Below are positions 23,033 through 45,717 of a stretch of 64,000 bases of DNA, in pieces. Under the pieces are notes generated by a model, which had not been told where the DNA came from, made no database searches, and saw only the letters and a program-made list of their open reading frames with translations. Source of the stretch: Notolepis coatsorum (lineage: Eukaryota; Chordata; Actinopteri; Aulopiformes; Paralepididae); assembly GCA_963971535.1 (NCBI GenBank), contig OZ020591.1:20229790-20293789 (forward strand), given 5' to 3'. Position numbers and translations under genes: made by a program. Numbering within the stretch: the stretch's first letter is position 1; every line of letters begins with the position of its first letter.

Positions 23033-23084
<52 letters not shown>

Positions 23085-23160
23085 ATTAAAATGGGCACAG
23101 CGGCCCGTACATTCCAGTGTGTGTGTGTGTCAACAAAGACTGCATGGTACTCACCACCAG

Positions 23161-23439
23161 TCACAGGAGAACGATCCGCCTGTTGTTGTGATTTGCAGCG
23201 AAGCGATCGATCACTGCATTGACGTCCAGTTCTTTGGTCCTTCTGGAACTGATTGCAAGCAGACCCAAGTTGCTGGTTCGAGCATCTCCGCTTCTATTCC
23301 TCAGATAGGTCTTTATCCGGCGTAAGCAAGAAAAGCTCCTCTCACACGCAGCTGATGTGACGGGCAATGTCATTGAGATGCACACAAGTTTGTACAGATC
23401 AACGAACGCATCATTGTATGGCCTTAATAGCACCAGCAC
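23161..23439 (-). pseudogene. hAT transposase C-terminal dimerisation domain
   Basis: The minus strand gives a clear hATC domain: YKLVCISMTLPVTSAACERS, FSCLRRIKTYLRNRSG, NLGLLAISSRRTKELDVNAV, FAANHNNRR. The P-V-T-S-A-x-x-E-R-S-F-S and L-R-R-I-K-T-Y-L-R motifs are those of the ZMYM/THAP9-like branch of hAT transposases. The domain helps transposase dimerise. The catalytic and zinc-finger portions are absent upstream, so this is a dead 3' fragment of an autonomous element. Confidence 0.85.
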
Positions 23440-23718
23440 GTCATGGGTGGTGTTGATGACAGTTCCACTTTGTTTTTTTCTTTCAATAAGTCGCTTTGCC
23501 TGGTGAAGTTCTGCAGAGATGTTGGTTCATTATAAAAGATACAAACCTGACAACAAAAGCACTAAAATGTTAAATAAAAGGACCACAGTAATGAGGCAGG
23601 AGGAACATGTTTTTTTGCACTATAATGGTAAAATTGTAATTAAAAAATTTGCCCCTAAAACATATTTTTTGCCCCTAAATTTCTAATTTAGGGGCAAGTG
23701 TGCCCCTAGTGAAAAAGC

Positions 23719-24456
23719 TTAGCGTACAGCCCTGGCCTGGAGGCGCTCTCGTTCCGTTGCAGAGTGTTCGCGCTCGCTTAATTGTTGCGCCTGGAGGTGC
23801 TCTCGTTCCGCTGCAGAGTGTTCGCGCTCGCTTAGTTGTTGCGCCTGGAGGCGCTCTCGTTGTTCGCGCTCGCTCATTTGTTGAGCCTGGAGGCGCTCTC
23901 GTTCCACAGCAGAGTGTTCGCGCTCGCTCAATTGTTGCGCCTGGAGGCGCTCTCGTTCCGTAGCAGAGTGTTCGCGCTCACTAAGCGTCTTTGCTTGAAG
24001 CCGGTCGCGCTCACCCTGGAGTCGATCTCTTTCGGTTGAAGCTGTCAGCGTGGCGATCAAGGCTTGCGCCAGTCTCTGGTCCGCCTCGCTGGGGGATGAC
24101 ACTGACGGAGGTGATCGGGTGCTGACAGTGCTTGTTGGAGATCTGTTCTCCCGGAGCGCTCCGGGGTCTATCCCGGTGACGCTGTCTGGAGGTATAGTCC
24201 CGTCATGTCCCACTTGGTCCCCCCTGTGAGCTAAGTCGGTTTGGCTTGAACCCACTGGGGTCTCTACTGGCGGGGTCGCCAAGTCGATAGGATTGGGCAT
24301 GCTTAAACTATCCGATTTATCCGTATTTAACGTCTGTTTAGATAAGCTAGGGGGTAAAACAACAGCGAAGTCCTCCAGATACGGAGGTAGCTGACGTTTG
24401 CGCTGCGGGCGTTCTAGCTTAGGGGAGCCGCTTGGAGAGTGTTCACCGCTGGCCAT
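23719..24456 (-). pseudogene. Gag-like N-terminal fragment with 18-residue repeats
   Basis: Fossil. A 245-residue minus-strand frame starting 40 bases after the tRNA-Tyr primer-binding site. Early residues (RKRQLPPYLEDFAVVLPP) resemble the start of gag-like proteins in fish LTR elements. A Ser/Pro/Thr-rich middle follows, then several 18-residue repeats of the type REHSAxERERLQAQQLSE, predicted to be a long charged coiled coil; they correspond to 54-bp DNA repeats at about 23735-24000. No zinc knuckle or major homology region is present in what remains. Function beyond a structural role cannot be stated. Confidence 0.55.
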
Positions 24457-25817
24457 GTCAATATTAATATTATATTAAATATTACACTGATACCCTCCGG
24501 CTCGAAGGACCAATTGTAACTGAGGGGTTACAAAACCCTGACTGTATTAAAGATTGTGATAGATTAAACCACTGCTAGGTATGTACTTTAATTACTGGCC
24601 AGACAGTACATCAAATATAGATGGTGAACACTCACAAGAACACGGCATTGACAAAGAAATAGTATTTGAGGGTATTTTATTATTATGCAACATTAGGTTA
24701 CAGAATGAGAATTAGGGTCGCGCTTGTATGGCGAAGAATATGCGTAAAGTCAGTCAATAGCATGAGTCACTAGGAATAGCAGGAATCCTACGATGGGTCT
24801 AAGTTGACGCCACCTGTCGTATAATAGCAACTATATAAGGCAACGCTGGTACCGCCTGGAGACAATGGGTTCCCTCCGGGGTGTAAGGCCTGGAGGGTAG
24901 AGGAATGTTCGGATACTCAGTCTGATTCAATGAAGAATAAAGAGACTCCACGTACAGGAGTCGGTCCTTGTAAATCCAACGATCAGCAGCAAAGCAATAA
25001 CTGTAATCCAAATGCTCGATAGCAATGATGACAGCCAGCCAGCCTCTGTCCATGAGGCCAGCCCGAGTTGTAATCCTCACAAGGTTGAATCCCAAACGAC
25101 AGTGGAAATCAACGAGGCTCTTCTCCGGGTAACACGTTCCAAATCAATATAATCCAACCAGTAATGGTTCTGCAATCGCCGACGCTGGTTCTCCTGTGCA
25201 CATGTCCAACGGTTCTCCGACTAGGCCTCCTCGGGTGCGGGCGACGTATTTAGGCCACACACCCTGGCTAAGGTACACTAGCTAAAACACGACGAACCGC
25301 TGGGTAATGCTACACACGAACGAACTGTGGTTGCACGATATACAATAAATGAACGACTATTTACTTCACATTAGATTAGGTCGAACTTGACGTTACTGCA
25401 TTAAACTCTGACACTTTACTATTCTATTCGCACATGTTCTCAACGCACGAGTGCTCAATTTACACGATGAACTACGTTGGCTTGTTTAGATGGACAAGCA
25501 GGTGATCGGTCGGGTTAGTTACTGCTGTGCGCACCTTGCGCTGTATATATACTTAAGTGATTATCTAGTCCCAAACCGCAGTCCTTGTCTGGGATCAATA
25601 CGCTGTCTCCGGGCATGTTCTGACATGCCTGAACTTGTCTTTGAACCTGACGTTGGGGGCTTGCGAGGTGGCGCCTAGGGCGCTGTCCAATAAGGAGAGC
25701 GAATATTACTCTGGTTTGAACGCAGGTAAAGGGATATTCCGTGTATATATAAATAATATACAAAGTATATCAAACAATAAAGGTAGATTCTCAGTTTTAA
25801 TCTGGCCCTTCACAACA
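23719..25817 (-). mobile_element. LTR retrotransposon relic: 5' LTR, PBS and gag-like start
   Basis: Fossil. In minus orientation: LTR 25817-24515 (about 1.3 kb, TGTTGTGAAGGG to CAGTTACA), then a primer-binding site (24512-24496) complementary to the 3' end of tRNA-Tyr, then a gag-like ORF (24456-23719). Pol and the 3' LTR are missing, so it is broken and cut off at about 23719. A related LTR is at 62470-63906. Family not certain; Ty3/gypsy is the most likely. Confidence 0.75.
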
Positions 25818-26500
25818 CCAGTGTTCTCGACAATGGAGTATGGTCGCAGATCTGCTGCTATAAAAACACCTATGGTGTTTGTTATTGCTTTGGCCCAGTC
25901 TGAATTGAGTCTGAATTGAGTCTGCTTGAATGCCACGGGGAGCTGGGTTTGCTTCTTCCGTGTACCAGTGATATTCACATTCGGGTGATGCCGTTTCAAA
26001 TGCGTGATAAAGTTCGCAATAAAGTTGAACAATGCCGGCACGTAGCCCCTTTCGTGACTGTGATGCAAGGCTTGCATCACAAGTGTGCATCACAGTCACG
26101 AAAGGGGCTAGCCGGCACGTAGCTTTAGTGCGATCCACCTGTCTTTGTCCATTACTGTGGTTAACTGGGAATCCGAAATTATCCCAAAACGGGAGACTTG
26201 AATGTTGTGGGAGCATCTTCTAGCTCTGGCTTGTCAGTTAGTATTGCACTCGTCATACTAAGGCTAATATGCTATGCTGAATTACAGCTATCGTTCAGTG
26301 TAGCTGCGTGGGATCAACAAACAACATCCGGTTAGTTGTGCACGTTATATTAGGGCCGGGGGGATTTAAGTTCCACAAAAAAAGGTTCCGTACCATTGCA
26401 ATCGTTCGGTGCACAGCGCGTACTGTACCGGAGGACCACATTGAGGCGGTACAGTACGTGTTCACGTACCGTTACACCCCTACTGCTAACGCTAATCACT
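25818..26500. mobile_element. hAT remnant with 25-bp hairpin
   Basis: The right end (GTACCGTTACACCCCTA, about 26481-26497) and the preceding block from 26344 match the right end of the hAT at 44380-49379. 26140-26240 repeats 40003-40100. Inside, 26043-26067 and 26086-26110 form a perfect 25-bp inverted repeat flanked by direct copies of GCCGGCACGTAG (26034 and 26111). Confidence 0.65.
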
Positions 26501-27399: not shown

Positions 27400-27819
27400 A
27401 GTATAATATGCATGTAATAAATAGTTTGTTAATAAACTCTGTTACTTGAAAAATGTTCACCATGCTCCTAATTTTTCTTTTATTTAGGAGCACATGTGCT
27501 CCCTGGGGAAAATGTTAGCGTAGAGCCCTGTATATAGTAATAATAATAACACAATAATAACACTAAAAAGCTATTTCAAATTTTTGGCTGGTAAAAAATC
27601 TGCCTGGCTGGTAAGCCAAAACGTAAATTTTGTTCCCCGAGTGCGTCACCTTGTTTGTAGAGCTATAACTATATTCTATATAGCTATGGATACAATACTA
27701 TGGCCCATTTGACATCAACTATCTATCATTCAATATGTGAAAAAGCATAAATTTTTTCATCCATACGTTCCCGTGTTATACCGTGGTGAATATAAGTATA
27801 GTTTTCGAGTGGTCTGGGG
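27400..27819. mobile_element. Two hAT right ends and a piggyBac-like relic
   Basis: TTAGCGTAGAGCCCTG at 27519-27534 ends one hAT; GGCTGGTAAGCCAAAACG to about 27640 resembles the right end of hAT B (14690-14782). 27650-27819 is a diverged copy of the piggyBac-like family (shared CTATGGCCCATT and TTTTTCAT blocks with 43990-44120). It resumes after the 13.8-kb nest at 41672. Confidence 0.55.
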
Positions 27820-28502
27820 CAGGGTTCGAAATTAACGTGGGCTTGGGGCAAAATGCCTGTGAAAATGGACAAAATGCCCTCGAAAATCAGTTAAGGGGGC
27901 ACAAAATGCCCCAGACAGTTTACTAATTATATATATATATTCTGTTGAAGTCCGACATATTTAAATATCTCCGTCATAATGTCCTGTGAGAATGATTCCC
28001 TCGCGACCTGTGTTTTGCTGATGAGAATGGCGGTGCGGCAGCTTGGTGCTGGATTAGCGAGAGGCGTGCAGCTGCGGAGCCGCAGAGCTTACAGTTGTGC
28101 CCGCACAGTGCAGTACTCCAATTCAGCCATTAGCAATTCAGCCATTGGGTGGGTGGCGCTGCTGAGCGGACCGGACCTGATAGCGCCGCTGGCTCTGCGG
28201 CTCTGCAGTTGCATACTATTGGGATGAGTTTATCGCTTCGTTGGGAGGCGGAGGTTGTCGTTGGTTTCAGCGATCACGCAGCGTTGGACCCCGCGATAAT
28301 GTTGCCGTCTCTCTGCCAAATTTCTCAGTTCTTCGCTTGATATAATTAATACAAATGTCCAATATAACGGAATTCGTTAGCTCATAAAAATGTGATTATA
28401 ACAGACTGCTGTTAATGTCGGGCCGACTGCCCACAGACACCTATTTGATTTCAAGTCAGGAGCAGCACGGAGTCTCGAGGGACTTATTTTATTTGGAATA
28501 TA

Positions 28503-28953
28503 TTCATCATCATTAGGTGGCTTCTTCGTTCCGAAGGTTGCCTATCACTCTCCAACCCATTCTGTCCCCACTTCTTCTCTCCAACTCCGTGACTCCGTCT
28601 CTCACTCCGCTCCAATCACAGACGTCGTCTACCCAGCCTCTTCTTGGTCTTCCACTTCCTCTCTTTCCATCCACCTTCCCCATCACCACCTTCTTGAACA
28701 TCTCCCCGCTGGATCCTCTCAGAACATGCCAGCACAACTCCATCTTTCTCTTTTTCAACCTCTCTAGCAGCTGTCCTCCTTGCATATCCGCTCTTCTCAG
28801 TACCTCCTCATTCTTGATCTTATCCTTCCATGTTATCTTCAGCATCTTCCTCAGCGTCCACATTTCAAAAGAGTCTATCATCCTCTTTGCCTCTTCATTC
28901 AGTGTCCATGCTTCTGCTCTGTATGAAAAGACTGACATAACATACGTTTCCAA
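28503..28953 (-). pseudogene. RTE-like LINE ORF2 C-terminus (distal part)
   Basis: The minus strand encodes LETYVMSVFSYRAEAWTL, MWTLRKMLKITWKDK, NEEVLRRADMQ, GSGRPRRGWVDDVCDW and GDRMGWRV. This is the common C-terminal region of animal endonuclease-reverse transcriptases (motifs AEAWTL and GRPRxxWxDDV). It ends near 28513 and has an ATGATGATG tail at about 28503, which fits RTE-type elements. It continues upstream at 39005-39275 beyond the inserted Harbinger-like element. Confidence 0.75.
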
Positions 28954-29999
28954 AATCCTGGGCCCTCATTCATCAACGTGACGTAGAAAATGTTCTATTT
29001 CCATACTTAAGCACAGAATTTAGAATATGTGCATGCACAAAAAAAACGGGATTTATCACACGTGCGTACACAGGTCCTACGCACACCTGTCTTGATAAAT
29101 ATGACTTTGATCCTACGTTTGAGCTTGTGCACTGTTTTAAGTATTTGCATACCAGAACCGCCCCGATTAACCATATACGGTAATGGAATACCCCCATGAA
29201 ATGTGGAAAAATGGACTAAGCCGAGGGAAGCGTGTTATGTGACAGGCTGACAGACGTGTACACGTACGGTGATGTCGGATATGATATCTATTAACCATTG
29301 CTGCCTGGGCAGCGCAAACACTAATAAAGACCGTGCTGGAATATGACTGCCTTTTCCCGTTTTGTTTGATTAATACCCAGGGATTAAAGTTCTCCTCAAT
29401 TTTATTCCAAATCGCGACGGATTTTCCGTCAATTTTCTACCTGCTGCATTATGATTTCTAGAGGCATACAATCTATTTTGATGTCAGTATTGGGTAGCCT
29501 ATATAAACAATAATACGAGAGCATATACAAGAACAATGAATCTCACTGCCATGTATGATGTAGCCTATACGCCATGTGTAGCCTGCCTATATGTGATCAA
29601 TACAAACTTGAACTTGAATTCCATCATGTCTGTGTGCGGGTCACTGCGGGAACTCACAAGGCTGTTGTCACAATGTAAATAAGAACGTGCACTGAAAAGT
29701 TACAGTATGTAGTTGGTTGATTATTTGTATGACAGTCAGTAAACCCTTGCAAAAAGTATCCGTTTTATTTAATGAATTGAAAACATTCAGCATCGCCTTC
29801 CTCCTGGCATGCAGCAACAACATGTATCAGGCAAATGCGCATCGCAACATTGACTGAGTGGAATCCCTTTCTATTCACATAACTGCATTTGTGATGGAGC
29901 TTTGACAGCTACAGTAACAGTCTATTGCTCGATCCATCTCCAATATCACGATGGACCGTGCCGGTGGCAAAGACCCGAGGGTGGAGAGGACTTGAATGA

Positions 30000-30160
30000 A
30001 TTCCATCATCATATTTATATGTTGTCTGTCCACTATGTTTGTTACTTTGTTATCCCCCCCCCCCTATCTATGTAAAGCGACCTTGGGTCTCTTGAAAGGC
30101 GCTATATAAAATGAAGCTATTATTATTATTATTATTATTATTGTTATTATTATTATTATC
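30000..30160 (+). mobile_element. L2-type SINE/LINE tail with (TTA)n
   Basis: GTAAAGCGACCTTGGGTCTC followed by GAAAGGCGCTATATAAAATG and a TTA array (30118-30160) is the usual L2-type 3' end. Truncated on the left. Confidence 0.65.
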
Positions 30161-30776
30161 ACATCTGTGCGGGAGCTCACAAATAGACTGTTAGTCTCAG
30201 TGAAGTTTCAACAGAGGTCATCTATTCTAACTAGAGCTGGGCCGTTAACGGCGTTAACGCTATACTAGTATCGCGCGATAATATAATTAACGCATTAATC
30301 TTTTTAGATTTATCTTTTTTTATTGGAAGAATTAGTACATATTTATACATTTCAGTTATCAAAATTATACAACTTCCATTTCCTTCCTCATTCCTATCCC
30401 CTAATCCCACCCATCCCACCCAGTGAGGGCGACGACAAACATACATGAAAAAGAAAAAAAGAGATATAAATAAAAAATAGACATTTAAATAATTAAACAA
30501 AAGTACAGATGTGGCAGACAAAGCTACGCAAAAGAAAAATGAAGTCAAATTAAAATAAAACAAAGATAAAACAGAGATATTTTTATATATACATACCGTA
30601 ATAATAATATATAATATAAGTGTTACTACTCTCCATTTTAGTAGCGTAATTTCCAGATGGTAAAACAAATAAAATGGAGAGTAAATTTAACACCCTTAGC
30701 AGACCACCACAATGCCATCTCCCTAGCCATGCGTGGGCTAGCAGTGTCATGAAGGTAGATAGGGGGTGGAGGGGGG

Positions 30777-33700
30777 TCATGGGGTCCCAAGATTGGATGG
30801 AGTCATATGGGTTTTGAAATGGGATAGGAAGGGCTGCCATGTTTTGTGGAAGATATCCGTGTGGCCTTGTGTAGTAAATCTGATTTTCTCTATATGTATA
30901 AGAGACATGACATCCCTCATCCAGTGTAAGTGTGAAGGGGGAGTGGCTGCCTTCCAGTTGAATAGGATGAGACGTCTGGCAATGAGTGAGGCAAAGGCCA
31001 TGGCATTGGATTGCCCAATAGATATTGTAGCGTTTTCCGGTGTCAAGCCAAATAGTGCAATAAGAGGGCATGGGTCAATGTTCATAAAAAATATGTCTGA
31101 ATAAGATTTAAAAATGGAAGTCCAGAAAGGGGCCAGTACTGGACAATGCCAGAACATATGGATAAGTGAGCCAGGGGCTTGGTGACACCGGTCGCATGTG
31201 GGATCCATGCCAGGATTTATCTTCGCCAGTCTAGTCTTTGACCAATATAGACGGTGGAGGAGCTTGAACTGTATCAGTGAATGGCGGGCACATATTGAAG
31301 AAGAGTGTATTCGGGCAAGAGCGTTTTCCCATTCTTTGTCTGTAAATTGATGATTTAGATCGGACTCCCAGTTTTGTCTTATAGCCAATACTGAGGAGGG
31401 TAGGGATAGGGATATGATGTTATATAGTTTAGATATTGAGCCTTTGATTACAACCTTCACCTCCAAGATGCGATCGATCAAAGTTTTTGGGGGTGTATGG
31501 GGGAACTGGTCAAATTTGCTCTTAACAAAATCACGTATCTGTAGATATCTGAAAAAATTTGTTTTTGGTAAGTTAAACTTTAGGGACAGTTGTGTGAAAG
31601 ACATGAAAGAACTGTCTTGGTACAAATCATAAATGTTCAGAATGCCCTTCTTAAACCAGTTGCTGAAGGTTTCATCCACCATAGAGGGAGGGAAAAGGAA
31701 GTTTTTGTGGACAGGTGACGACTGTGACATGGCGTGGAGACCAAAGTGTTTTCTAAACTGGGACCAGATCCGGAGGGAGTGTTGTACTAAGAGGTTGTTG
31801 GTATACTGGGCGGTTGTGACTGGGAGCGAGGAGCAGACTAAGGATTGCAAAGATGTTCTAGAACAAGATGCCCTTTCCATGTCCACCCATGCCGGTACCC
31901 ACTGACAGAGTCCGTAGTGGGAGTGACTCCAGTAGAGAATGCTGTGAATATTTGCAGCCCAATAGTAGACCAAGAAATTGGGTAGTGCGAAGCCTCCCTG
32001 TGATTTAGGCTTCTGGAGGGCCATTTTATTTATTCGGACTGGGCGTTTGTTCCAAATAAAATCTGATATTGCCTTGTCGAGGGCTTTAAAAAATGACTTT
32101 GGAATAAAGGTTGGAATATTTTGAAATAAGTACAGAAATTTCGGTAATGTGTTCATTTTCACAGTGTTCACTCTGCCAACAAGTGATAAAGGAAGTGATG
32201 ACCATCTGATAAAATCCTGCTTGGTGCGCTCCAATAGAGGGGTGAAGTTGGACGCTATAAGATTAGAATGTTTATGTGTTATCGTTATGCCAAGGTAACG
32301 GAAGCTGCTTGGGGAAAGCTTGAAGGGGAACCTAGAGGGGGGGATATTTCTAGCTAAGGAATTTATGGGGAAGAGTTCACTCTTGTTTAAGTTTAATTTA
32401 TAGCCAGAAAAAACACCAAACTCGTGTAGTATGTGAAGGACACGTGGAAGTGTGGCCGCTGGATCCGCGATATACAACAGGACATCGTCCGCATATAGCG
32501 AGATTCTTTGTTCCTGTCCATTTCTGATGATGCCTTGGACATGGCGGTCCTTGCGAAAGGAAATAGCTAGTGGCTCGATCGCTAGTGCAAATAGTAGCGG
32601 AGAGAGAGGGCAACCCTGTCTTGTACCGCGTTGTAGGGGGAAATATTCCGAAGTCACATCATTTGTTCGAACTGATGCCACTGGAGAGGAGTATAAAAGT
32701 TTGACCCAGGACACAAATTTCTCGCCGAAACCGAATTTCTGCAGAGTATAGAATAAATAGTCCCATTCAACCCGGTCAAAGGCCTTCTCTGCGTCTAGCG
32801 CAACAACGACCTCTGCAACGGGAGACTCGGTGGATGAGTAAATTATATTCATAAGGCGCCGCAGGTTGAAAAAAGCCATTCTATCCTTCACAAAGCCAGA
32901 CTGGTCTGGATGGATAATACTTGGTATAACGGATTCCAGTCGTCGAGCGAGTACCTTTGCCAAGATCTTTGCTTCATTGTTAAGGAGAGAAATAGGACGA
33001 TATGAGCCACAGTCTTTCGGGTCCTTATCTTTTTTTAAAAGCAGGGATATTGAGGCTTGATAGAGAGTCGGAGGAAGCGAGCAGGATTGAAAAGATTCCT
33101 CAAACATTGAAGCCATAATGGGACATAACTGGGTGGAATATTTTTTTAAAAATTCCACTGGGAACCCGTCTGGGCCTGGGCTTTTCCCACTCTGCATCAT
33201 AGTTAAAGCCTGTTGGATTTCATCAGCGCTAATGGGCTCTTCCAAAAGAGTCATTGAATCATTGTCTATGACTGGTATATCCAAATTTGCGAAGAAACTA
33301 TTCATGAGAGAGGGGTCTTTGGGGGAATCAGAGGTATATAGTGAAGAATAAAATGTTTTGAATTGACCATTTATTTCCAATGGGTCCGTATAGATCTCTC
33401 CAGTGGCAGAGTTAATTTGCGTGATCAAGTTCTGAGCGGTGCGGTGTTTTAGCTGTAGTGACAGCACTTTACTAGGTTTATCACCGAATTCAAAAAAGGA
33501 CTGCCGTGATTTGAGTAGAAGCTGCTCAGCATGACTGGTGGAAAGGAGGTTAAATTCCGTCTGTAGGGTCACTCTTTCATTATAAAGTGCAGGTGTCGGA
33601 GAGACTGCGTATGAATAATCCAATTTAATAATTTGGTCTGAAAGTTCAGTGCGTCTGCTGTTGTGCAGTTTATTACGTCGAGCACAATTAGAAATAATTT

Positions 33701-34616
33701 CTCCACGGAGAAAAGCTTTAAGAGCTTCCCAAATGATGGACATAGGCATGCCAGGGGTAGAATTTACCTCAATAAAAAATTTGATCTTAGTGGACAGGAA
33801 CGATGAAAATGAGTCCTCAGATAGCAATAGTGGATTAAGTTTCCACGGCCTGAATGATGGACATTTGTCCGGGAAGGCTAGCTCTAAGATTATTGCTGCA
33901 TGGTCTGAAATAACAATGCTATCGTAAGAGCAGGAACGCACTTGAGATAGAAATGTGTTGTCAATAAACAAATAATCAATTCGAGAATATGTATGATGAA
34001 CTGGTGAAAAGAAAGAGTACTGTTTGGCGGTGGGATGAAGGAAGCGCCAGACATCTGAAATACCGTATTGCTTCAGGAAGGACACTATGGCTCTAGCAGT
34101 CTGAGATTGTGGAGCTGGATTAGATGATGATCGATCTAAGGCTGGGTTAAGAGCACAATTAAAGTCACCTCCCATAATCAGTTGGTTAGAGTTCAGGTCG
34201 GGGAGTGAAGAGATAAGTTTATTGATGAAATGCGTGTCACCAAAATTTGGAGCATATACGTTGACTAGGACTACCTTTGTGGAATAGAGAGTTCCTGAAA
34301 CTATAATGAATCTGCCATTAGGGTCAGAGATCACATCAGATGGAGTAAATGGTGTGTTTTTGTTGATCAGAATGGCTGTTCCTCTGGCTTTGCTCTGAAA
34401 ACCAGAGTGGAACACTTGACCTACCCAAGCTCTGTGTATTCGACGGTGATCTACTCGCCGAAGGTGAGTTTCTTGCAGAAAAGCGATGCCAACCCCAAGC
34501 TGCTGTAAGTGAGTAAGGATCCTAGTACGTTTCAAGGGGTTATTTACACCCTTCACATTCCAACTAATTATGTTAGTATTGCCCCCTGACCCCCTATTAG
34601 GATTAAACACTAGCAT
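30777..34616 (-). CDS. L1-type ORF2p: endonuclease and reverse transcriptase
   Basis: 1279 residues from ATG, uninterrupted. Residues 15-245 are an APE endonuclease with the usual catalytic set: Asn20 (SWNVKG), Glu49 (LQETHL), YAPN at 121, Asp151/Asn153 (GGDFN), Asp214 (SRIDY), Asp238-His239 (SDHA). RT spans about 476-760: GKSPGPDGFP, YRPISLLN, Asp608 (ALDAEKAFDRVEW), RGTRQGCPLSPLLF, YADD at 708-711. A Cys/His C-terminal motif (CDRCHQAPGSLIHMFWHC) follows, as in L1 and Tx1 elements. The length fits the family (about 1250-1300). It nicks target DNA and copies its own RNA in the nucleus. Every catalytic residue looked for is present. Confidence 0.95.
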   Translation of the reverse strand: MLVFNPNRGSGGNTNIISWNVKGVNNPLKRTRILTHLQQLGVGIAFLQETHLRRVDHRRIHRAWVGQVFHSGFQSKARGTAILINKNTPFTPSDVISDPNGRFIIVSGTLYSTKVVLVNVYAPNFGDTHFINKLISSLPDLNSNQLIMGGDFNCALNPALDRSSSNPAPQSQTARAIVSFLKQYGISDVWRFLHPTAKQYSFFSPVHHTYSRIDYLFIDNTFLSQVRSCSYDSIVISDHAAIILELAFPDKCPSFRPWKLNPLLLSEDSFSSFLSTKIKFFIEVNSTPGMPMSIIWEALKAFLRGEIISNCARRNKLHNSRRTELSDQIIKLDYSYAVSPTPALYNERVTLQTEFNLLSTSHAEQLLLKSRQSFFEFGDKPSKVLSLQLKHRTAQNLITQINSATGEIYTDPLEINGQFKTFYSSLYTSDSPKDPSLMNSFFANLDIPVIDNDSMTLLEEPISADEIQQALTMMQSGKSPGPDGFPVEFLKKYSTQLCPIMASMFEESFQSCSLPPTLYQASISLLLKKDKDPKDCGSYRPISLLNNEAKILAKVLARRLESVIPSIIHPDQSGFVKDRMAFFNLRRLMNIIYSSTESPVAEVVVALDAEKAFDRVEWDYLFYTLQKFGFGEKFVSWVKLLYSSPVASVRTNDVTSEYFPLQRGTRQGCPLSPLLFALAIEPLAISFRKDRHVQGIIRNGQEQRISLYADDVLLYIADPAATLPRVLHILHEFGVFSGYKLNLNKSELFPINSLARNIPPSRFPFKLSPSSFRYLGITITHKHSNLIASNFTPLLERTKQDFIRWSSLPLSLVGRVNTVKMNTLPKFLYLFQNIPTFIPKSFFKALDKAISDFIWNKRPVRINKMALQKPKSQGGFALPNFLVYYWAANIHSILYWSHSHYGLCQWVPAWVDMERASCSRTSLQSLVCSSLPVTTAQYTNNLLVQHSLRIWSQFRKHFGLHAMSQSSPVHKNFLFPPSMVDETFSNWFKKGILNIYDLYQDSSFMSFTQLSLKFNLPKTNFFRYLQIRDFVKSKFDQFPHTPPKTLIDRILEVKVVIKGSISKLYNIISLSLPSSVLAIRQNWESDLNHQFTDKEWENALARIHSSSICARHSLIQFKLLHRLYWSKTRLAKINPGMDPTCDRCHQAPGSLIHMFWHCPVLAPFWTSIFKSYSDIFFMNIDPCPLIALFGLTPENATISIGQSNAMAFASLIARRLILFNWKAATPPSHLHWMRDVMSLIHIEKIRFTTQGHTDIFHKTWQPFLSHFKTHMTPSNLGTP

Positions 34617-36595
34617 AAGAAAGTGAAAAAATATTCATGACATTTGAGATGGCAAAGTGGTGGTCCAGGGTGCTTATAATTAAAGATGAAAAAAAGTCAT
34701 AAGAATAGAAACAAAAAACAATAAACAAAAATAGACAAAGATATTCACTGTTAATATTAGCAATGAAAAACAAACAAACATAAAACGCCCTCTCACGTCC
34801 CCGTGGGGCGTGACTACTCACAGCCATAGTAACACTGACTGTGCCTAGCATTACAGCTAACCTTGTGCACCCTGTGCTCTAAACGAGCACCCTGTGAGAA
34901 CTGTAATTCTTAATTACACATGGCAAGAACCAAAAAAGAAAAGAAAAAAAGGGAAGAAAGAAAAAATAATGAATAAATAAATAATTGCTCGACACGTGGC
35001 CATATATAATTATGTAACTAGCTTGGTTGGATAAGGCAGGTTTCTAACAATGTATACACCTAAACCCCTGTTTGGAATCTCATTGTAGTCCACCCCCTCA
35101 AGAGACAGGTACTGCCTATTTAGACCAGTAGAATGTAAGATATCTCTCTTTGGTTAGAGTTCTACACCAAATGTTTGGGCCATGGGGTATGTTGTTTTAT
35201 AAAGGTGCATAGTGGCACCAAACCTGCCTTTTCCATATAACTAACACACACACCCACACACACACACACACACACACACGGGGGCGGGGGCCAATTGATC
35301 ACCGCCCTGACACACACATACCCACACGCACTCACACACCACGTATGTTGCTATGGTTAACTTGAATAAGTATGACAAAGATAAATCGCAAGCCTGCAGC
35401 CAATTCGGCGCATATAATGTAATGATACTAAATAATACGATATCACCAGTGTGGGATATGGGCGAGTAAACAGTCAGCTTGTACCCAACGTAGACTGAGA
35501 CTGAAAGTTTAGCAATAGCCAGGCGGCTAGCTGTGGTAAGTGACGTCATCAAGTCAGCCACCAGTGACCCGGATGAAGATGAATATACATGTTAATCGCC
35601 AGCGGGATGACAGTCAGCTTGTATTTAACGAAAGAATAATAATAATAAGTTGGCTTTAGCAAGTAATAATAATAGTAACAATGAATTCACAGTGAACCGA
35701 GTTAGCCAACAGTCTATAGTAAGTGACGTAATCGAACAAACCCGGCAGTGACCCGGAAGAAAAAGAAATACAAAAATAATAAAAAAAAATAGGCGACATT
35801 CACCGGCAGGTTCACATTCGGCTTGTATTCTACGTAATAAAAATAGTAGTAACAAATGAGCTTTAGTAAATTAAGACTAGTCGGCCGGTTATAACGAGCA
35901 GGTTGGCCGATGTACACAGCAATTGCATAGCGACAATCATACCGTGTTGTTACCCACATCAATTTCTTCAACATTATGTAATTATAAATAGGAGCAATAA
36001 CAGATTATATAGTCTTCCATTACCTCCCAGATAATCTCAATGCAAAAAATTACGAAAAGTGGTGGCCCCCCTGATAGTAGATGAATGCGAATAAGAAATC
36101 ATAATGATAATAGTAGTAATAATAATAATAACGGTCTAGCTAGTTGCTAGGACCGTAAGGATCGTTATCAGTCAGCCAAAATGTTCAAATCCACTTCAGC
36201 CGGGGGTGTAAGGGGAAAAAACCCTGAGTCCACTGGTGTGTATCATATCCAAATGTTGTTAGTCCTTTAGTGTAAGCAGGATTTATCGTCAACAGTATGG
36301 TATATAATATGAATAATAACGGATTGTTTTTTGGATAGTGTTCCATTACCTCCTAGGTAATCCCAGTACGAAAAAAAAATAAAAAAAAAATACGAAAAGT
36401 AGTGGCTCACCTGATAGTAGACAGATGCAAGTAAAATAAATCATAATAATAATAGTACTAATAATAATAATAACAACGGTCTAGCTAGTTGCTAGGACCG
36501 TGAAGAACGTTACCGGTCAGCCAGAATGATCCTTCAGATCCACTTCGGCCGGAGGTATGAGGGAAAAAACTGATGTGTATCATATCCGAGCGTTA
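34617..36595 (-). other. 2-kb spacer between L1 ORF1 and ORF2, with tandem duplications
   Basis: Much longer than the usual L1 inter-ORF gap. Roughly 300-bp units at 35996-36290 and 36313-36616 are diverged direct copies (shared GGTCTAGCTAGTTGCTAGGA). The second copy overlaps the last codons of ORF1, so the first is a duplicated ORF1 tail plus downstream sequence. A further diverged set around 35470, 35605 and 35820 shares TCAGCTTGTA and AGTGACGT blocks. CA/GT-rich segment at 35245-35280. Confidence 0.75.
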
Positions 36596-37507
36596 TTAGT
36601 CTTTTAGTGTAGGCATGATTTTTTCCTTGTAGAAATCGGCTGCCAGCTCTGGAGAGTCAAATGTGTAGCCTTCCCCACCGAATGTCAGGCGCAGCTTAGC
36701 CGGGTAAAGCAAGCCGTATCTGATGTTGGCCTCGCGGAGCAGGTTCTTGATGTCTTTGTATGCCCCTCGGCGTCTGGATAGATCCGCAGAAAGATCGGGG
36801 AAAATGTGTACCGTGGAGCCCCTGAATGTTAGCCGTCCCCGCTCACGCGAGAGCCGCATGACCAGCTCCTTCGTCTGGGAATAATGGAACCGTACCATCA
36901 TGCCTCTAGGAGGGGCCTTCTGGTGCGTTTTGGGTGCCATTAGGCGATGTGCGCGGTCTAGGACTACCGGCTTGTCGAAGGCCTCTTCACCGAACAGCTC
37001 CACGAAAAAGGCGGACATGAATGTAATAGAGTTCTGCCCCTCGATTCCTTCAGGGATTCCAATTATTTTTACGTTCTGCCTGCGTGAACGGTTTTCGAGG
37101 TCATCAATTTTGAGTCGTAGGTTAGTGTTTTCGCTTAAGGATTCACACAGTGTCTCCACTGTGGATGCACACAGTGTCTCTACTGTGGACAACCTCTCGT
37201 CCATATCCGCCAATGAAGTCTCCACGTGCTGTATTTTCTGCGTCTGTGTGGATATCGAGGCCTGGAGGACCGAGAGGGAGGTACGGAGCTCGGCCAGGAA
37301 TTCTGTACGGAGGGAAGCTACCTCGGCACGAATTGTAGAGGTAATCAGCTCTTTCATTATCGCTGGCGTCAGCTCTGTTGGTTCCGCGGCGTCCGCCATC
37401 TTGTCGCCTGTACTCGAGCCCGTTTCCTCTAACTCTTCAAGTTCTGTCTTTCGCATATATCTTGTTGCATATATCTTGTTGCTGGTTGTTGCTGGTTTTT
37501 TAGGCAT
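36596..37507 (-). CDS. L1-type ORF1p (transposase_22-like RNA chaperone)
   Basis: 303 residues from ATG, uninterrupted. Residues 50-137 are a coiled coil (MKELITSTIRAEVASLR ...) for trimerisation. 138-220 are the RRM-like domain with ENRSRRQNVKIIGIPEG and VVLDRAHR, and 221-303 the C-terminal domain (FRGSTVHIFPDLS, KLRLTFGG). This is the standard L1 ORF1p order; it binds the element RNA and packs it into a ribonucleoprotein. An 8-residue tandem duplication (STVETLCA/STVETLCE, about 107-122) lies in the coiled coil. The plus-strand ORFs over it are shadows. Confidence 0.93.
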   Translation of the reverse strand: MPKKPATTSNKIYATRYMRKTELEELEETGSSTGDKMADAAEPTELTPAIMKELITSTIRAEVASLRTEFLAELRTSLSVLQASISTQTQKIQHVETSLADMDERLSTVETLCASTVETLCESLSENTNLRLKIDDLENRSRRQNVKIIGIPEGIEGQNSITFMSAFFVELFGEEAFDKPVVLDRAHRLMAPKTHQKAPPRGMMVRFHYSQTKELVMRLSRERGRLTFRGSTVHIFPDLSADLSRRRGAYKDIKNLLREANIRYGLLYPAKLRLTFGGEGYTFDSPELAADFYKEKIMPTLKD

Positions 37508-37679
37508 ACCAAATGTCTGATAGTGTCGTCTGTTTAGTCAGAGAACATAAAATAATACTTTCAGTTCGAGCCAAGTCAAATGGGCTGTAGTAAAACTTAA
37601 TTTCTCACGGAGCTACTCTCATGTGCGTCGTTACTCCGCCATCTTGGAAAACCTCTTGATCTTAACGCATTAATCTTAC

Positions 37680-37860
37680 TTTTTTTTTTTTACCTTTATT
37701 TACCCAGGGTAGGTTCTCTGAGCACAGATGCTCTTTTTCAGGAACGCCCTGCTTCACATTCACAGTTCCATTCACACCTGGGAGCTGCCCAGTACAACCA
37801 CAGTTGACACCATTGGCCACTGAGCAACTCCACTGGAGCAGTTGATTCAAGCCATGTCAC
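37680..37860 (-). mobile_element. SINE-like retroposon
   Basis: Minus strand: CAACTGCTCCAGTGGAG ... CAGAGAACCTACCCTGGG, then TAAATAAAGGTAAAAAA. The A-rich tail and lack of coding sequence suggest a SINE or LINE 3' end. Family not assigned. Confidence 0.5.
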
Positions 37861-38109
37861 ATAGTTCAAGTTTGAAATGATTCTTTCTGTTTTGCTCCTG
37901 AGAGTGCTAGATACTGTACTGTACTGGTAATATTATTTATTTGTGTTAACTTCTGAATAAAACAACTTATTAAACACAAGTACATCTTATTGAAAAAAAA
38001 TATATAAAATCTAACCCTGACTAACCTTACTGTCATGCACTTGTCCTAATAAACTAACCTACACTGTAACACGCAACACTTTGATGAACATTGTTACTCA
38101 GCTGATAGA

Positions 38110-38205
38110 GTTATACTCTTCTTGCTGTCTTGTCGCACAGAACTTGTAAGTCGCTTTGGATAAAAGCGTCAGCTAAATGACTAAATGTAAATGTAAATGT
38201 ATTGA
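38110..38205 (+). mobile_element. Fish LINE/SINE 3' tail
   Basis: TTGTAAGTCGCTTTGGATAA then AGCGTCAGCTAAATG and (ATGTAA)n. This tail is widespread in teleost genomes. Truncated on the left. 38206-38424 unassigned. Confidence 0.7.
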
Positions 38206-39004
38206 ACATTATTTTGATATTTCATTACCAATTATCATAGCAAAACAGCTTTTTCAAACAGTCTGTAATGCATTTTGGAAACGGGAGATGGGCTCATGGT
38301 GTAATGGGCCACCTGGCCTGAGAAACATAAGGAGGAAAGAAAAAGTAAGGACTTACTTCTGGTCATTATTTGGGTAGAACACACATATTTTGAATGCCTT
38401 CGGCAGGTTTTTTTTTTTTTTTTTGAGCCATTTTAATCTAGATTAATCTAGATTAAATCCAGGATTGCAGATAGATTAATCTAGATTAAAAAAAATTATC
38501 TATGCCCACCTCTAATTCTAACCAACAAATTGAAGTAGAAAGCATTTCGTGACCAATCTTATTTGGAAACATGACACACAAAATAATTCGCTTTTTATTT
38601 GAAACAATATTTAATCGCGTTTGGAGGTTGGTGTTTTGCGTCTGCCCCCCCGTGCCAAACAAGCAGGCCAACCTCTTGTTCGCGTGTGAGCCTGTTATAA
38701 TTACACTACTGTCGCTATTTTACAATGAACTATAATGAATTACGGGTCATACAGAAGTTGAGCACTAATGCACGGAAGCTTATTTCCGCGTTGAAACTAA
38801 TGCAGAACTGAGGAGCGCTTATGCCGTAGTAACGATGTTCTACCACTGGGCGTCAGCTACGCATGCTCCGAGCTTTGCGTAAATATAAGCACAAAGTCAA
38901 GTTCAAGTTGAAATTGATGAATCCCACACTTTGCTTAGAAATGGTCGTACGCACAGGTTAAGCACATATATGTGCGTAAGTCACGTTGATGAATGAGGGC
39001 CCTG

Positions 39005-39275
39005 GTCTTCATTTTCCAACTTATGTTTCTTCTCAATAATTCTTTATGGTTCCGAATGCGCCCTTTGCAATTCCGGTTCTTCTCTTAATGTCCATGTTAG
39101 CTCTTCCACCTTCACTGATCCAGCTTCCAAGGTACATGTACTCCTTCACTTGTTCAAGTTTTTCTCCATCCACCTGTATTTTACAAACAGTTCCTGGTGT
39201 TTTTTCAATGATCATTACTTTAGTTTTCTTTGTGTTTAGCGACATTCCATAGTTTTTGCATTCGACATTCATATT
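39005..39275 (-). pseudogene. RTE-like LINE ORF2, RT thumb part (proximal part)
   Basis: The minus strand encodes YGMSLNTKKTKVMI, VDGEKLEQVKEYMYLGSWIS and IKRRTGIAKGAF, the region after the catalytic RT core (pattern K-T-K-V-M and Y-L-G-S). It is the same element and orientation as 28503-28953, separated by the 10-kb Harbinger-like insertion. The RT core and endonuclease are missing at the 5' side, so the LINE was truncated on insertion. The flank at 39276 matches 19046, which marks the outer host repeat. Confidence 0.75.
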
Positions 39276-40137
39276 AATGACTGTATATACGCAAAAGTAG
39301 CCTAGTTTTAAGTTAAAATATTATAAATCTACATGCCTTGAGGATGTCATTCTTTATATAGCCTGCCTATCAATTGTTTTTAAGCTCAATAAACTGACGG
39401 GAATTTCTCACATTTGTCCGGGAGATTGAAATCTTCCAGGACACAGAGACCGGCCCCAATATTTTCTAAAGGAAACCCTGATGGAGACATTAACATTACG
39501 TTGTTTCATTTATGTGAATAGTTTATTTACAAGTGAACCAAACTTCTCCTCCATTGCAAACACTGCAACGCTCCCAGCTGTTTACTAATGATATATATAT
39601 ATATATATGGAGACATTATTAATGTCATTAACATTACGTTATCAAACATAGTATAAAAATTAATATTACTATTTATTTAACTGACGAGTGAAAGACGTGA
39701 TTTATTAAATCTGTTTTGATCAGACGCCGATGTCAACGTCACTCTCCCCACCCTCTCACATTAGCAGGTGAGCAGCTCACCAGCATTTGATGGCATTTTG
39801 AAGACAGACAAGATGGAGTGTTTTTTTATCAAACTATAAAAACACAAAGGAAAAAGAGTCTGAGAAGCAGATTCCCCAGGTCCTCAAATAAAAATAAAAA
39901 AGCGGAGTACAATGGGAGTCGTGGGGATTAGACTGGGTAGGGGTTGAGGAGGATGCTATCAGTCAACATATCATTTATTGCAAAGCTTGTCGTGAGACTC
40001 CGGCGTTTGTCCATTACTGTGGTTAACTGGGAATCCGAAATTATCCCAAACGGGAGACTTGAATGTTGTGGGAGCATCTTCTAGCTCTGGCTTGTCAGTT
40101 AGTGTGGATCTTTTTGTCCGCGGGACAAAAAAATTTG
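39276..40137. other. Interior of the outer hAT; repeats only
   Basis: 39276-39365 repeats 19046-19137; 40003-40100 repeats 26140-26240. An (AT)n run is near 39590. No gene. Confidence 0.6.
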
Positions 40138-40145
40138 GATGTAAG

Positions 40146-41533
40146 TAGGCCTGTCACGATAACACATTTTGCTGGGCGATTAATTGTCCCAGAAAATATT
40201 GCGATAAGCGATGTTATTGCGGTTTTGAGATATTTTTTTTGAGAAATGTATTTCCCAAAAGTTTTCAATTAACCTTTTTATTTTTTTACTAATATAATAA
40301 TAGCATAATAATGCAAGGAAACCGTTTCAAAGTGCAATAAACCTTTATTTAACATTGGAAGATATTTTAAATATCCTAAATAAAAAAAATGCTCAGTTTG
40401 AAAGTGGAAACAAGCCCTCCGTCTGGCTTTTTGTATCATCCTTTTAACATGTACATTTATTATTAATGTACCTTGCGGTACCATGTACAAAATGTTAATA
40501 AAGTATGAGGAAAAAACTGTGGAAACGTAATAAATAAAAAGGCAGTGAAACAATAATCAAATAAACACCAAAATATATACTATCTCTATTGGAATGGAGA
40601 CTTCAGCACAGGATAAACTAGGGATGGGCAAAAATAATCCAGATCGATTGATCACATGATGTACTCGACTACTCGAGTACTCGTGGAGGAAAACGCTGTA
40701 CAAAATAAACATCTTTTCCGGTGTTTTAGACTTTTATTTTGAAACCCACCCACCAGTCCGGAGCGGAAGTATTGTTGTTATTATCCTAGCAGAACGTATT
40801 GAGCGGACAACTTGTCTCGTCCGGTTCTGTGTTTTTGAGCTAATGATAAAACAAATGTTGAGATTGTTGGTGAACAACTAACTTTAGGTTAGTTTTAACG
40901 TTAGATGCAGCTACTACAGGCAATCAACGATGAGGAGGAAGCGCCAAAGCCGTATATAATAGAATAGTAGCCCTGTGGTGCGTAGGCACGACTCGAAACT
41001 ACCTGTTATAATAAATTAATTCATGTTTAACTTGTCCCCGTGTCCAGTCCTTTGACTAGCCCTACCCGTTCATTGTAAACAATGATGCATGTAATTGTAT
41101 TAACGTTATTCTGTGTTGTAGCTAGCTATGCTATACGTTGTATTTCGTTTGTTAGCTATTTAGCTAATGTTGATAGCATCAACGCTAGATCTTTAATCTT
41201 TATTTAGCAGTCCAGTTTCTCCGGGCAGTAGCGAGTAACTACTTGGGTCTAAAAATAGCTACACTACAAAGAACACTACTTGGTTAAAAGGAGCAACACT
41301 ATTGAGAAATGTAGTTAAGCTATGTGGCGTTGCTAGTGCCCCACGGAGCTCCCGTGCTGTACTCTGTAGTAAGGCCAGCCGCCCCCCACACGGAGAGTGA
41401 CTGACAAGGGGTACTGGTTCCGCCTCATTAAAACAAACGCGCAAATAGCAATTAATTGCGCCCGTCAAAATCATTGCATTCATTTTAATTATTGCGCCGA
41501 TTAATCGATTTATTGCTTATTGCGGCAGGCCTA
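40146..41533. mobile_element. hAT element (TSD GATGTAAG)
   Basis: Ends TAGGCCTGTCACGATAACAC and ATTGCGGCAGGCCTA, with perfect duplications GATGTAAG at 40138-40145 and 41534-41541. Same family as 16928-17859 and free of the LINE tail found there. Non-coding. Confidence 0.93.
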
Positions 41534-41671
41534 GATGTAAGGATGTTTAATAACCGTTTATCATAAAAATTCAGTGCCCCCGAAATAAATAAAAAAAGCC
41601 CCCGAAAATCAATTAAGGGGGGCAAAAAAAGCCCTTGAATATTTTTTTTTATTTCTAACCCTGGTCTGGGG

Positions 41672-42940
41672 TAATTCCCGAAAGGCTGAGTAATAGCCTT
41701 ATACGTCAATTCTACTATAAGTGTAGAATTGCCTGGACACGCTACTATTCCCAAACCAAATCTATATAATAGGTATTATGTTTCATCATGAATGCATGAA
41801 ATGTGGGTGGGGGGTCGTTTCTGATTATTTTATTGACAGTAACGGCATTCGTATTGAACACTAAAAACGCTTAGCAGCCCGATCGGTATAAAAACTTGGG
41901 ATGCACCGAATGGGAAATTCTTCAATGCCACCATCGGCGCCAATGTTACGCTTAATATCGCCTAATCTATGTTTTAAATTATGGCTATGTGTCTAATCTG
42001 CCTGTCGATTATCAAAGAATCCTTTTCCAGTCAGTGCTGTCAAGGCAGATTGTTTTTTTATCGCTTCATTTCCGTTTGAGAGCATTTTGAAAAGCACCCG
42101 TTTTGAGGTAAAAAACAGTCCATTCTGGACCATTCTATGATAATCGTCTTTTACTGGAATATTCCAGAACGTTGATATTTGTTGGCCTATTTATGAATCG
42201 TTTTCAAATAAACGCTAGATGATCAATATTATACGTGCACGCACGCACATTCGAGCCGCGCACGGATAATCGCAGTGTTCATTTCCTCTTGGATTTTTAC
42301 AGTGAAACCGAAAGAGCCCATTTCACAAAACAGCTTATATCTTCATCAAAATGAGTCTGATTATCCTAACACTGATAACATAGATTCCTTACCTGACATC
42401 AGATGGTATTCAACTGGTATATTCCAATTCCTGATCACCATTCGGAAAAAATTAAGTGTATGGATCCAACGTGTGTACAGTGCAGTACATGATTCCGCGG
42501 GTATCAGAGGCTCCAGAATGAACTGTGATAACCCCGGCTGCATCAGTGGACTGGAAAATGTGGAGTACGGGATTTTTTTCCCCATCCATTTTCATTGAGT
42601 CCATTCCAAAATCCCTTATGTCATCTGGGAGACGATAGGGGGCGCTTTTTTCCACATCTGATCGCCGGCGGCGCTCGGGTATACTAGGGTAGGCTTGTGT
42701 GATGCAATATGATTTCAGATCGCTAAAAAAACGAGATATTAATAATTCCGAGAAAACTCGTGAGTGCCATAGAAAGTGTTAAACAGACCTTTTTCAAGTT
42801 CCAAGTTTTAATACTCTTATCAACATGCGAGTCAACAAATGCTTGCTTTATGCAGCCATTTAACACAAAAGGATGACCCTCATGCATTGCAAATTTGCAT
42901 CAAATTCAAGAGTGATGCACAAAATAACTTAAAAGAAAAT
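41672..42940. other. PiggyBac-like relic, right part, then unassigned sequence
   Basis: 41672-41870 continues the piggyBac-like relic after the nest (GGGGTCGTTTCTGATTATTT corresponds to the GGGTCGTTTATAATG region at 44326). From about 41900 I see no family. An open 107-codon frame at 42275-42598 has no domain I know. Confidence 0.45.
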
Positions 42941-42949
42941 AATAATTTG

Positions 42950-43413
42950 GCGGCTAGGTGGTGCAGTGGGCAAGGCGCTCACCACCAATGCAGGAGATGC
43001 TGGGTTCGAGCCCAGCTCTCTGCATTGCTATCAGCTTGGCTGGTCGTTCATACTAATACAATTGGCAGTATTAGGGGGTGGGAAGCTGATGGGTGGGGAT
43101 CGGACGTTGTGGACAGCGACTCCTACAGGTCGGTTAGTGCGCCTGCGCAGCAGAATCAGGAAGCGACGGGTGCGGCGTGCCCTCCCACGCAGACCCCCGA
43201 CGCTGAGAGATCGCGCTGTGCAGGTGAAAAGATGCGACGGCTGCTTCCTCGAGTACCGGAGGGGACACGTGATGTAAGGCTTCGTCCACATTGCAGCCGG
43301 CTTGTGGGAGGCATGGCCTAACAGCGTTCGAGACAGGGGAGGGTAGAATTGGACGATACGAAATTGGGATGGGAGAAAAAGTAGATAAAAAATAATAATA
43401 ATAATAATAATAA
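42950..43413 (+). mobile_element. tRNA-derived SINE with (ATA)n tail
   Basis: The head 42953-43025 has an A box (GGTGGTGCAGTGGGCAAGG) and a B box (GGGTTCGAGCCCAGC) with tRNA-like spacing. A GC-rich body of about 350 bases follows, then a tail of AATAAT repeats (43388-43413). Direct AATAATTT at both ends could be the target duplication, though it overlaps the tail. RNA polymerase III promoter expected. Confidence 0.8.
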
Positions 43414-43489
43414 TTTAAAACAATGAATAAAGTGTACATGAAATAATAGGGGAAAGAAAACGTTAGGAACTTGTTACATTCACACACAC

Positions 43490-43732
<243 letters not shown>

Positions 43733-43739
43733 TTCAGAA

Positions 43740-43918
43740 ACAAACATAGTATCAATGAGGGCATCAATAATACACCTGAGTGAAGTCTAGTAAAAAAAAT
43801 AAAAAAATGTAAAAAAAATAAAATAAAAAATCTTAAAAGTAAATCGTGAGTTAAAAGAAATAGTGGCGTTAATAGAATCGGGCGATAAAGCGTTAATACC
43901 GCGTTAACGTTGACAGCC
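43740..43918. mobile_element. Probable hAT right terminus
   Basis: Ends TAATACCGCGTTAACGTTGACAGCC, the reverse of a common fish hAT start (GGCTGTCAACGTTAACGCG). The partner end was not found. Confidence 0.45.
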
Positions 43919-44465
43919 TTAACCCATTCTCCGCCACCACTTTGATTAGTCCTAATCCCTTCTCTGCCAGCTCTATTTGTCTATGGATATGTTCACCTAC
44001 TTTGCAGGGCTATAACTTTTTAAATTGTATTGCTAAATTGACATTACTATGGCCCATTCAACATCGATTAGCTATTGTTCAGGGTGTAGGAACGTTTTAC
44101 TTTTTCATTCACACATTCGTATAAAAATACTGTCTAGAGTAAAAATGTTTTTATCGTTTTCTGCAGTAATTCATAGAACGTGAGATATAGCCATTTATGC
44201 ATATATTACATCATCAAATGCAGTTTGCTAGCGATTGACGTCAGATAAAAAATTTCAATTGTACAAGGTCCTAAACGTCGTGACTCATCATCTGCTGGTG
44301 ACCGGAGGGGGGGGGGGGGGGGGGGGTCGTTTATAATGCAATGGCCGACGTTAAATGAATCATGTAGTATGGTTGATATTAGGGGTGTAACGGTACACAA
44401 AATCCACGGTTCGGTACGTACCTCGGTTTTGAAGTCAAAATGGTTTTAATAGTTTTTTTTCTTTT

Positions 44466-45000
44466 AATTCAGATGTCCATTCATATGCTACACGTCAGTC
44501 CAGGGACCTGCATATACCTTATTGTGGTACTTCACTTAGGCAGTTCTCAGTGAGGTATAGAGGGTCCAATCTTTGGAATGCAGCTGATCCTATGCTGAGG
44601 AAATCTCCATCTCTGCTTATTTTTAAAGCAAACTACAAAGAAATTCTCATCCAAAAGTAGTAGATAGATAACAGGTCATACATGTAGGTATGCATTTGGT
44701 TATGTGGGTGGGTAGGTTTATAGGCAGGTGGGTGGGTTGTTATATATTATTATGTACACAGTATATCCATGTATGTACTGTGTGTATGTATGTTTGTATT
44801 AACACGAATCTTTTAATGTATTCTGGTATTTTATAATATGCATATTCTTGTATTTTTGTATGTTTGATTTTATAAAACGGGGGACGTTCTTGATAAGCCT
44901 CTAGGCTTCTAACTTCTCCTTCACAATCGTTATAACTTATTATGTATTGTTTTTACTTCTGTTTAACTGTGTTAATAAACAAACAAACAAACAATACATT
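44466..45000 (+). mobile_element. LINE C-terminus and 3' UTR, (AAAC)n tail
   Basis: 65 codons (44466-44660) encode the last part of a CR1/L2-type ORF2: SYATRQSRDLHIPYCGTSLR, FSVRYRGSNLWNAADPML, FKANYKEILIQK, stop. The pattern Y-x-T-R...Y-R-G-x-x-L-W-N...F-K is the LINE C-terminal signature. A 3' UTR with a GTATGTA-rich stretch and an AAAC-repeat tail follow to about 45000. Strongly 5' truncated. Confidence 0.82.
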
Positions 45001-45717
45001 ACATTTTTTAATTTTTTTTTAATATAAATTATATATATATTTTTTTAATACACCTACTGTTTTATATATACTGTTTTTTAGTAATAACTAGAAAGTAATG
45101 GTATTTATTCAACAACAGGTGATTGATTAATGATACTAATACAAATCTATACAATGAGTATGGCTGCAGCACTGCAGATATACCCTACTCCAATGATCCA
45201 CACACGGACATTACACGGTGTTGCACTCGCTACCCAGTGGCTCTGCAGATATACCCTACTCAGTCAAGGCTCCGGTGGAAGTAGCATGGAGGATCTGTTG
45301 TGATTTTTGCACAATAAATATTCAACATTCTCTTTTGAGACTCCGCCTCAGACTCTTATCATTTGGCACTAAAAGCTAAACATTGTCACCGATATGGCTG
45401 TCCGCAACATGTCATTAATTGTGTATGCGAGGTGGTTCAGTGACGACTACTCTAACGTGAGCTAGGTTAGCTAGCATTAGCTACCGAGAGATGGAAATAC
45501 TGTAACTTTACTGGTGAAAATGTGATTTACGTTGGAATACTCCTTTGCCAACTTGCTGTACTTTGCTTGCAGGTCTGCAGCCATTATTGCTGGATTATGA
45601 ATAGCCCCAAGGTAACGTTATGGCTAAACCTTTAACGTTAGTTATATCACTATGGCGCGACCCCGGTCAGTCGCCTTTGGTTTAGCTCCGTGACGATTGT
45701 GCACATTTTTAGCTATT

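Follow-up and report, generated by a model that had tools for sequence, protein, structure and literature searches.

Clusters of nested transposable elements (TEs), in which younger copies lie within older ones, occur in diverse eukaryotes and are common in mammals, according to sections of two papers on the subject (PMC2672092; PMC2517846). REANNOTATE was built to order nested transposons, as a section of the first describes, and a section of the second describes how the analysis of transposon interruptions yields relative ages. Part of a review lists hAT, PIF-Harbinger, PiggyBac, RTE and L1 elements in ray-finned fish (PMC7599744), and part of a study of medaka argues that the nested TEs of the dmrt1bY locus are regulatory or co-opted (PMC5789577). 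Here we describe a nest of mobile elements in a stretch of 64,000 nucleotides (the window) from the fish Notolepis coatsorum (assembly GCA_963971535.1, contig OZ020591.1, positions 20,229,790 to 20,293,789).

As in the clusters treated in those sections of PMC2672092 and PMC2517846, younger elements here lie within older ones and the order is read from containment. Unlike the clusters described there, the nest combines hAT, Harbinger-like and piggyBac-like DNA elements with two long interspersed nuclear elements (LINEs), and target site duplications (TSDs) are readable in four of the five insertions of the chain as well as in a side branch. The locus resembles dmrt1bY, as presented in that part of PMC5789577, in holding several TEs at one fish locus; for the medaka TEs a regulatory role is argued. 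Searches for literature on nesting depth, insertion order and fish hAT or Harbinger nests, under those terms only, found none. The cluster very probably consists of ordinary nested transposons, a clean and readable instance of a common phenomenon; it is a well-resolved case of an already known kind.

A chain of six nested elements

Reading of the sequence together with scripted tests identified a chain of six mobile elements, each inside the previous one, plus one side insertion. From the outside in, the layers are a piggyBac-like relic, an outer hAT, a 5'-truncated LINE, a Harbinger-like element, an inner hAT and a full-length L1, which is the best-preserved copy of the nest. The features, including the two open reading frames (ORFs) of the L1, are as follows:

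27646..27811, plus strand: layer 1, left part of the piggyBac-like non-autonomous relic, matching copies at 43993-44118 and 57672-57548 (minus)
27812..27819, unstranded: outer-hAT TSD GTCTGGGG, left copy
27820..41663, unstranded: layer 2, outer hAT-like element, inverted ends 10/11 with an 8-bp TSD, own sequence about 1.68 kb
28503..39270, minus strand: layer 3, 5'-truncated LINE fragment of about 724 bp; the paralog at 19031-19136 carries the uninterrupted site
28513-28965 and 39033-39320, minus strand: LINE reading frames
28961..39001, unstranded: layer 4, Harbinger-like element of about 1.75 kb, TSD CTG at 28958-28960 and 39002-39004
30232..38514, unstranded: layer 5, inner hAT-like element of about 0.9 kb, TSD ATTCTAAC at 30224-30231 and 38515-38522
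30303..37661, minus strand: layer 6, full-length L1 of 7359 bp, TSD matching at 16/16 bases at 30287-30302 and 37662-37677
30777..34616, minus strand: L1 ORF2, 1279 amino acids from the first Met, endonuclease and reverse transcriptase (PF03372, PF00078, PF13966)
34617..36595, minus strand: L1 inter-ORF spacer, 1979 bases, degenerate tandem repeats
36596..37507, minus strand: L1 ORF1, 303 amino acids, L1 RNA-binding domain PF02994
40146..41533, unstranded: side-branch hAT-like element, TSD GATGTAAG at 40138-40145 and 41534-41541
41664..41671, unstranded: outer-hAT TSD GTCTGGGG, right copy
41672..41860, plus strand: layer 1, right part of the relic, edge approximate, right end lost

The six-layer nest proposed in the initial annotation is upheld by this analysis, with nearly all boundaries exact. 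Those given for the two hATs of the chain, the Harbinger-like element and the L1 are retained, and the right edge of the LINE is placed at 39270 rather than 39275. Matching ends and duplications, which had been ascribed to every DNA element, are present in the hATs and the Harbinger-like element but not in the outermost relic, whose nest copy has lost both of its own ends (on the left the first 74 or so bases of the element are absent). The description had also stopped at six elements, thereby missing a seventh, the side-branch hAT at 40146-41533.

In the outer, inner and side-branch hATs alike, the short inverted ends directly adjoin an 8-bp TSD; for the inner hAT, the ends match at 10/11 positions and the TSD at 8/8. 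The side branch sits on the right-hand side of the outer hAT; its paralog at 16928-17859 shares these ends and is flanked by another 8-bp TSD, AGTAGTAT. A second copy of the outer hAT at 50401-51759 likewise carries a different TSD, GGTGTAAC. The Harbinger-like element has the 3-bp TSD and matching inverted ends of the PIF/Harbinger group, the first 22 bases of the ends being identical and 25 of 30 matching overall.

The whole window was scanned for 11-bp inverted ends, with at most one mismatch, that directly abut an 8-bp duplication; 10 dinucleotide shuffles served as control. The window gave 19 matches and each shuffle none; the outer and inner hATs of the nest are two of the 19. Because their duplications are palindromic and lie inside inverted repeats, seven matches (859, 10155, 15842, 15845, 15848, 15868, 16381) were discounted, leaving 12. 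With 2 mismatches, at which the ends of the side branch first pass, there were 25 matches against 2-4 per shuffle.

Junctions compared with uninterrupted copies

TSDs alone leave the former continuity of the flanks unproven, and we therefore sought unbroken copies of the interrupted sites. Several paralogs of the nest elements are present in the window. Independent sequence backs three of the five junctions: LINE/outer hAT and Harbinger-like/LINE clearly, and outer hAT/relic more weakly. The junctions of the inner hAT and the L1 rest on TSDs that match perfectly, over 8 and 16 bp respectively, since neither element has a copy seen elsewhere in the window. A search of both strands of the 64 kb finds the L1 duplication, TTAACGCATTAATCTT, only at the two edges of the element.

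At the LINE site, a second piece of outer hAT, at 19031-19136, runs across the junction without a break. The best join, 28502|39271, is blunt and without a TSD, with a right edge best placed at 39270 and ambiguous by 5 bases. This join scored 181; random left flanks, drawn from the whole window with the nest and the paralog themselves included, reached that score in 2 of 5000 draws (best 189). Against the same paralog, a join with a TSD of ATATT scored 166 and the earlier join 28502|39276 scored 169.

At the Harbinger-like site, it is the LINE reading frame that is restored when the element plus 3 bases is removed. Joined with one CTG kept, the flanks are continuous in frame at KT|RIL; with both kept, there is one extra residue. 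The joined translation is 63% identical over 162 columns to a foreign LINE protein, P0121, the best of 3 database relatives. P0121 is itself uninterrupted, and its alignment is ungapped at the junction and has 4 gaps elsewhere. It carries the reverse transcriptase domain RVT_1, to which the right piece of our LINE gave a weak match (E 0.05) and the left piece no domain match. Like the initial annotation, we take the LINE to be RTE-like. Its 3' end reads TGATGATGA, and by eye its frame contains one frameshift upstream of the Harbinger junction.

At the outermost site, the relic paralogs at 43993-44197 (copy A) and 56154-55961 (minus; copy B) cross the position of the outer-hAT junction, and the joined flanks of the nest align to both. 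The score of the joined relic was reached by random right flanks in 0/2000 draws for copy B, 4/2000 for copy A and 3/1000 for a longer version of copy A. For the right flank alone, no draw of 2000 scored as well against copy B. The left half of the relic is thus clear, and copy B is the main support for the right half.

Copy A extends from 43919 to about 49886 and is flanked by TTAA with CCC-type ends (TTAACCCAT at 43919, ATGGGTTAA near 49886). A TTAA target and CCC-type inverted ends are hallmarks of piggyBac elements. The copy is split by a 5-kb hAT-like element (44380-49379, TSD GTTGATAT, ends TAGGGGTGTAA matching at 11/11), with both TTAA ends of the relic preserved around it; inside that hAT-like element, at 45694-48644, is a LINE with long reading frames, presumably Rex1-like.

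Protein-coding capacity of the DNA elements

In Pfam searches for transposases, stops were translated as X to keep interrupted frames searchable. Neither 39276-40137 of the outer hAT (three minus frames) nor 37678-38514 of the inner hAT (three plus frames) gave any Pfam match, to a hAT transposase or otherwise. One frame of the left end of the outer hAT gave only a weak DUF4400 match (E 0.05) and no transposase, and one frame of the side branch, most of which lay outside the scan, gave no Pfam match. The left arm of the Harbinger-like element (28961-30223, six frames; the right arm, 38523-39001, lay outside the scan) also gave no Pfam match; the element is called Harbinger-like because neither a Harbinger transposase nor a Myb-like protein matched in this arm. 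Neither the six frames of 55400-58700 (only a weak DUF7501 match, E 0.053) nor three plus frames of 43900-44500 contained a piggyBac transposase, and no transposase domain turned up in six frames of the flank 41664-43800; 27646-27811 and 49380-49886 were outside these scans. In the absence of a piggyBac transposase from the scanned parts, the relic is called piggyBac-like and non-autonomous. The DNA elements of the nest look non-autonomous.

A C-terminal hAT dimerisation domain (Dimer_Tnp_hAT, 6.9e-10) was found in a minus frame of 18300-26500, near 23161-23526 and between two pieces resembling the outer hAT. This domain may be what remains of an autonomous relative of that element.

The L1 element

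The innermost element is an L1 with an ORF1 RNA-binding domain and an ORF2 endonuclease and reverse transcriptase, which together with its 16-bp TSD are features shared with the L1 elements of ray-finned fish. Among the best 120 of 772 ORF2 relatives, the closest is P0001, with 58% identity over 97%. Seven of these 120 name an organism, representing six species (Pampus, Oryzias, Triplophysa, Kryptolebias, Xiphophorus and Polypterus), all of which we take to be ray-finned fish. YADD is among the invariant columns of 10 aligned ORF2 sequences, and the best PDB match in a sequence search is a LINE-1 ORF2 protein, presumably the human one (residues 15-1250, E 4e-191).

The 5' end contains CAAGATGGCGG from base 16, a motif that we take to resemble the YY1 site of human L1, and this resemblance suggests that the 5' end is complete. 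At the 3' end, AATAAA and a run rich in A are present, without a clean poly(A) tail. The inter-ORF spacer of human L1 is 63 bases long, in contrast to the 1979 bases with degenerate tandem repeats found here. Repeats in the spacer region (35965-36284 and 36286-36621) are 75% alike, and the end of ORF1 forms part of the repeat unit. A bolder proposal, which we regard as unlikely, is that the element is still live and comes from a lineage of fish L1s in which the spacer serves as an internal promoter or as a region for restarting translation at ORF2; if true, this layout would be unlike that of mammalian L1. In viral contigs, a single pattern match and no relatives were obtained for the ORF2, and the inner-hAT repeat pattern and the Harbinger-end pattern each gave 0 matches.

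Order of insertion and relative ages

The nesting permits the order of insertion to be read, as had been claimed. A hAT would have inserted into a piggyBac-like non-autonomous copy, and a 5'-truncated LINE then into this outer hAT, which would in a separate step have received the side-branch hAT. The Harbinger-like element would have followed into the LINE, the inner hAT into the Harbinger-like element and, last, the full-length L1 into the inner hAT. Because no transposase was found in the scanned parts, we infer that the DNA elements were mobilised in trans by transposases from elsewhere; the two proteins of the L1 would themselves have copied it into place through target-primed reverse transcription.

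Kimura two-parameter distances to the two copies are 0.29 and 0.21 for the left part of the relic (118 sites each), and the distance for its right flank is 0.30 (145 sites, 14 gap openings). Distances of the outer hAT to its paralogs are 0.12 (118 sites), 0.03 (61), 0.02 (88) and 0.05 (112), and four pieces of the side branch give 0.06-0.08. Neither a stop nor a frameshift interrupts the 4749 coding bases of the L1; assuming 0.05-0.15 indels per substitution, this puts a 95% upper bound of 0.9-0.5% on its decay. With its two reading frames intact, the L1 has probably decayed by less than 1%. The dated layers agree with age falling inwards, the relic being the most diverged layer and the L1 intact; the three middle layers, the LINE, the Harbinger-like element and the inner hAT, are undated. 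Among paralogs within the window, joined flanks read across the LINE site clearly and the outer-hAT site weakly.

Alternative explanations

Several observations weigh against a simple succession of insertions ordered by age. Atypically, the LINE lacks a TSD. Against copy A, the right flank of the relic alone was equalled by 115/2000 random draws, and by itself it has no BLAST match at 1e-4. The inner hAT, the Harbinger-like element and the L1 have no copies seen elsewhere in the window. With respect to age, the divergence of a paralog bounds the age of the family and not that of the insertion. The 0.06-0.08 of the side branch overlaps the range of its host, so the two cannot be ranked. Between the two paralogs of the relic the distance is 0.10-0.16, against 0.21-0.29 from them to the nest relic. 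Because the paralogs are mutually closer, the nest relic may come from a different subfamily rather than just being older.

Some layers could also have arrived preloaded, the inner hAT for example moving in with the L1 already inside it, in which case the nesting would give the order of events without each event having occurred at this locus. In hAT elements, whatever lies between the ends does move together, and the TSD of the inner hAT is still perfect over 8 bases, so that its arrival could be recent. However, the unit would be 8.3 kb long, greater length usually lowers mobility, and no transposase was found in the right arm (37678-38514, three forward frames only); we consider preloading very unlikely. 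Still less credible, to the point of being negligible, is an assembly artefact in which misjoined repeats make unrelated copies appear nested. The region is rich in repeats, where assemblies most often fail, but misjoins would not create flush target duplications of 8 and 16 bp, nor would they restore a reading frame or a paralogous site at the junctions. Successive insertion at this locus remains the preferred explanation.

Other elements in the window

Further hAT-like elements lie to the right of the nest. A 7.5-kb hAT-like span at 50389-57863 (TSD GTTGTTAG) has the same ends as the element at 44380-49379 and contains at least three other hAT-like elements as well as a relic copy; the second copy of the outer hAT begins 12 bases within its left end. 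At 56160-57530, two back-to-back hAT-like elements seemingly have one imperfect duplication in common (GCCTAGAG / GTCTAGGG / GTCTAGAG), as if the second had inserted into the TSD of the first.

To the left, about ten near-identical 36-bp tandem repeats with frames open on both strands occupy 119-485. At 3477-7722, three long reading frames that adjoin or overlap one another resemble, from the frames alone, a LINE with reverse transcriptase, presumably L2-like. A large inverted repeat at 15804-20438 has arms 100% identical over one 92-base stretch, with TACCGGTA palindromes. Rfam gave nothing at the gathering threshold in the window.

Implications

The relative order of six insertions is fixed here from one sequence without a molecular clock. 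The nest can serve to calibrate the ages of transposons in the host species, and it leaves general views unchanged. Being full length with both proteins open, the L1 is a candidate active element; possibly still mobile, it is, with its 2-kb repeat-rich spacer, the most interesting part of the nest.

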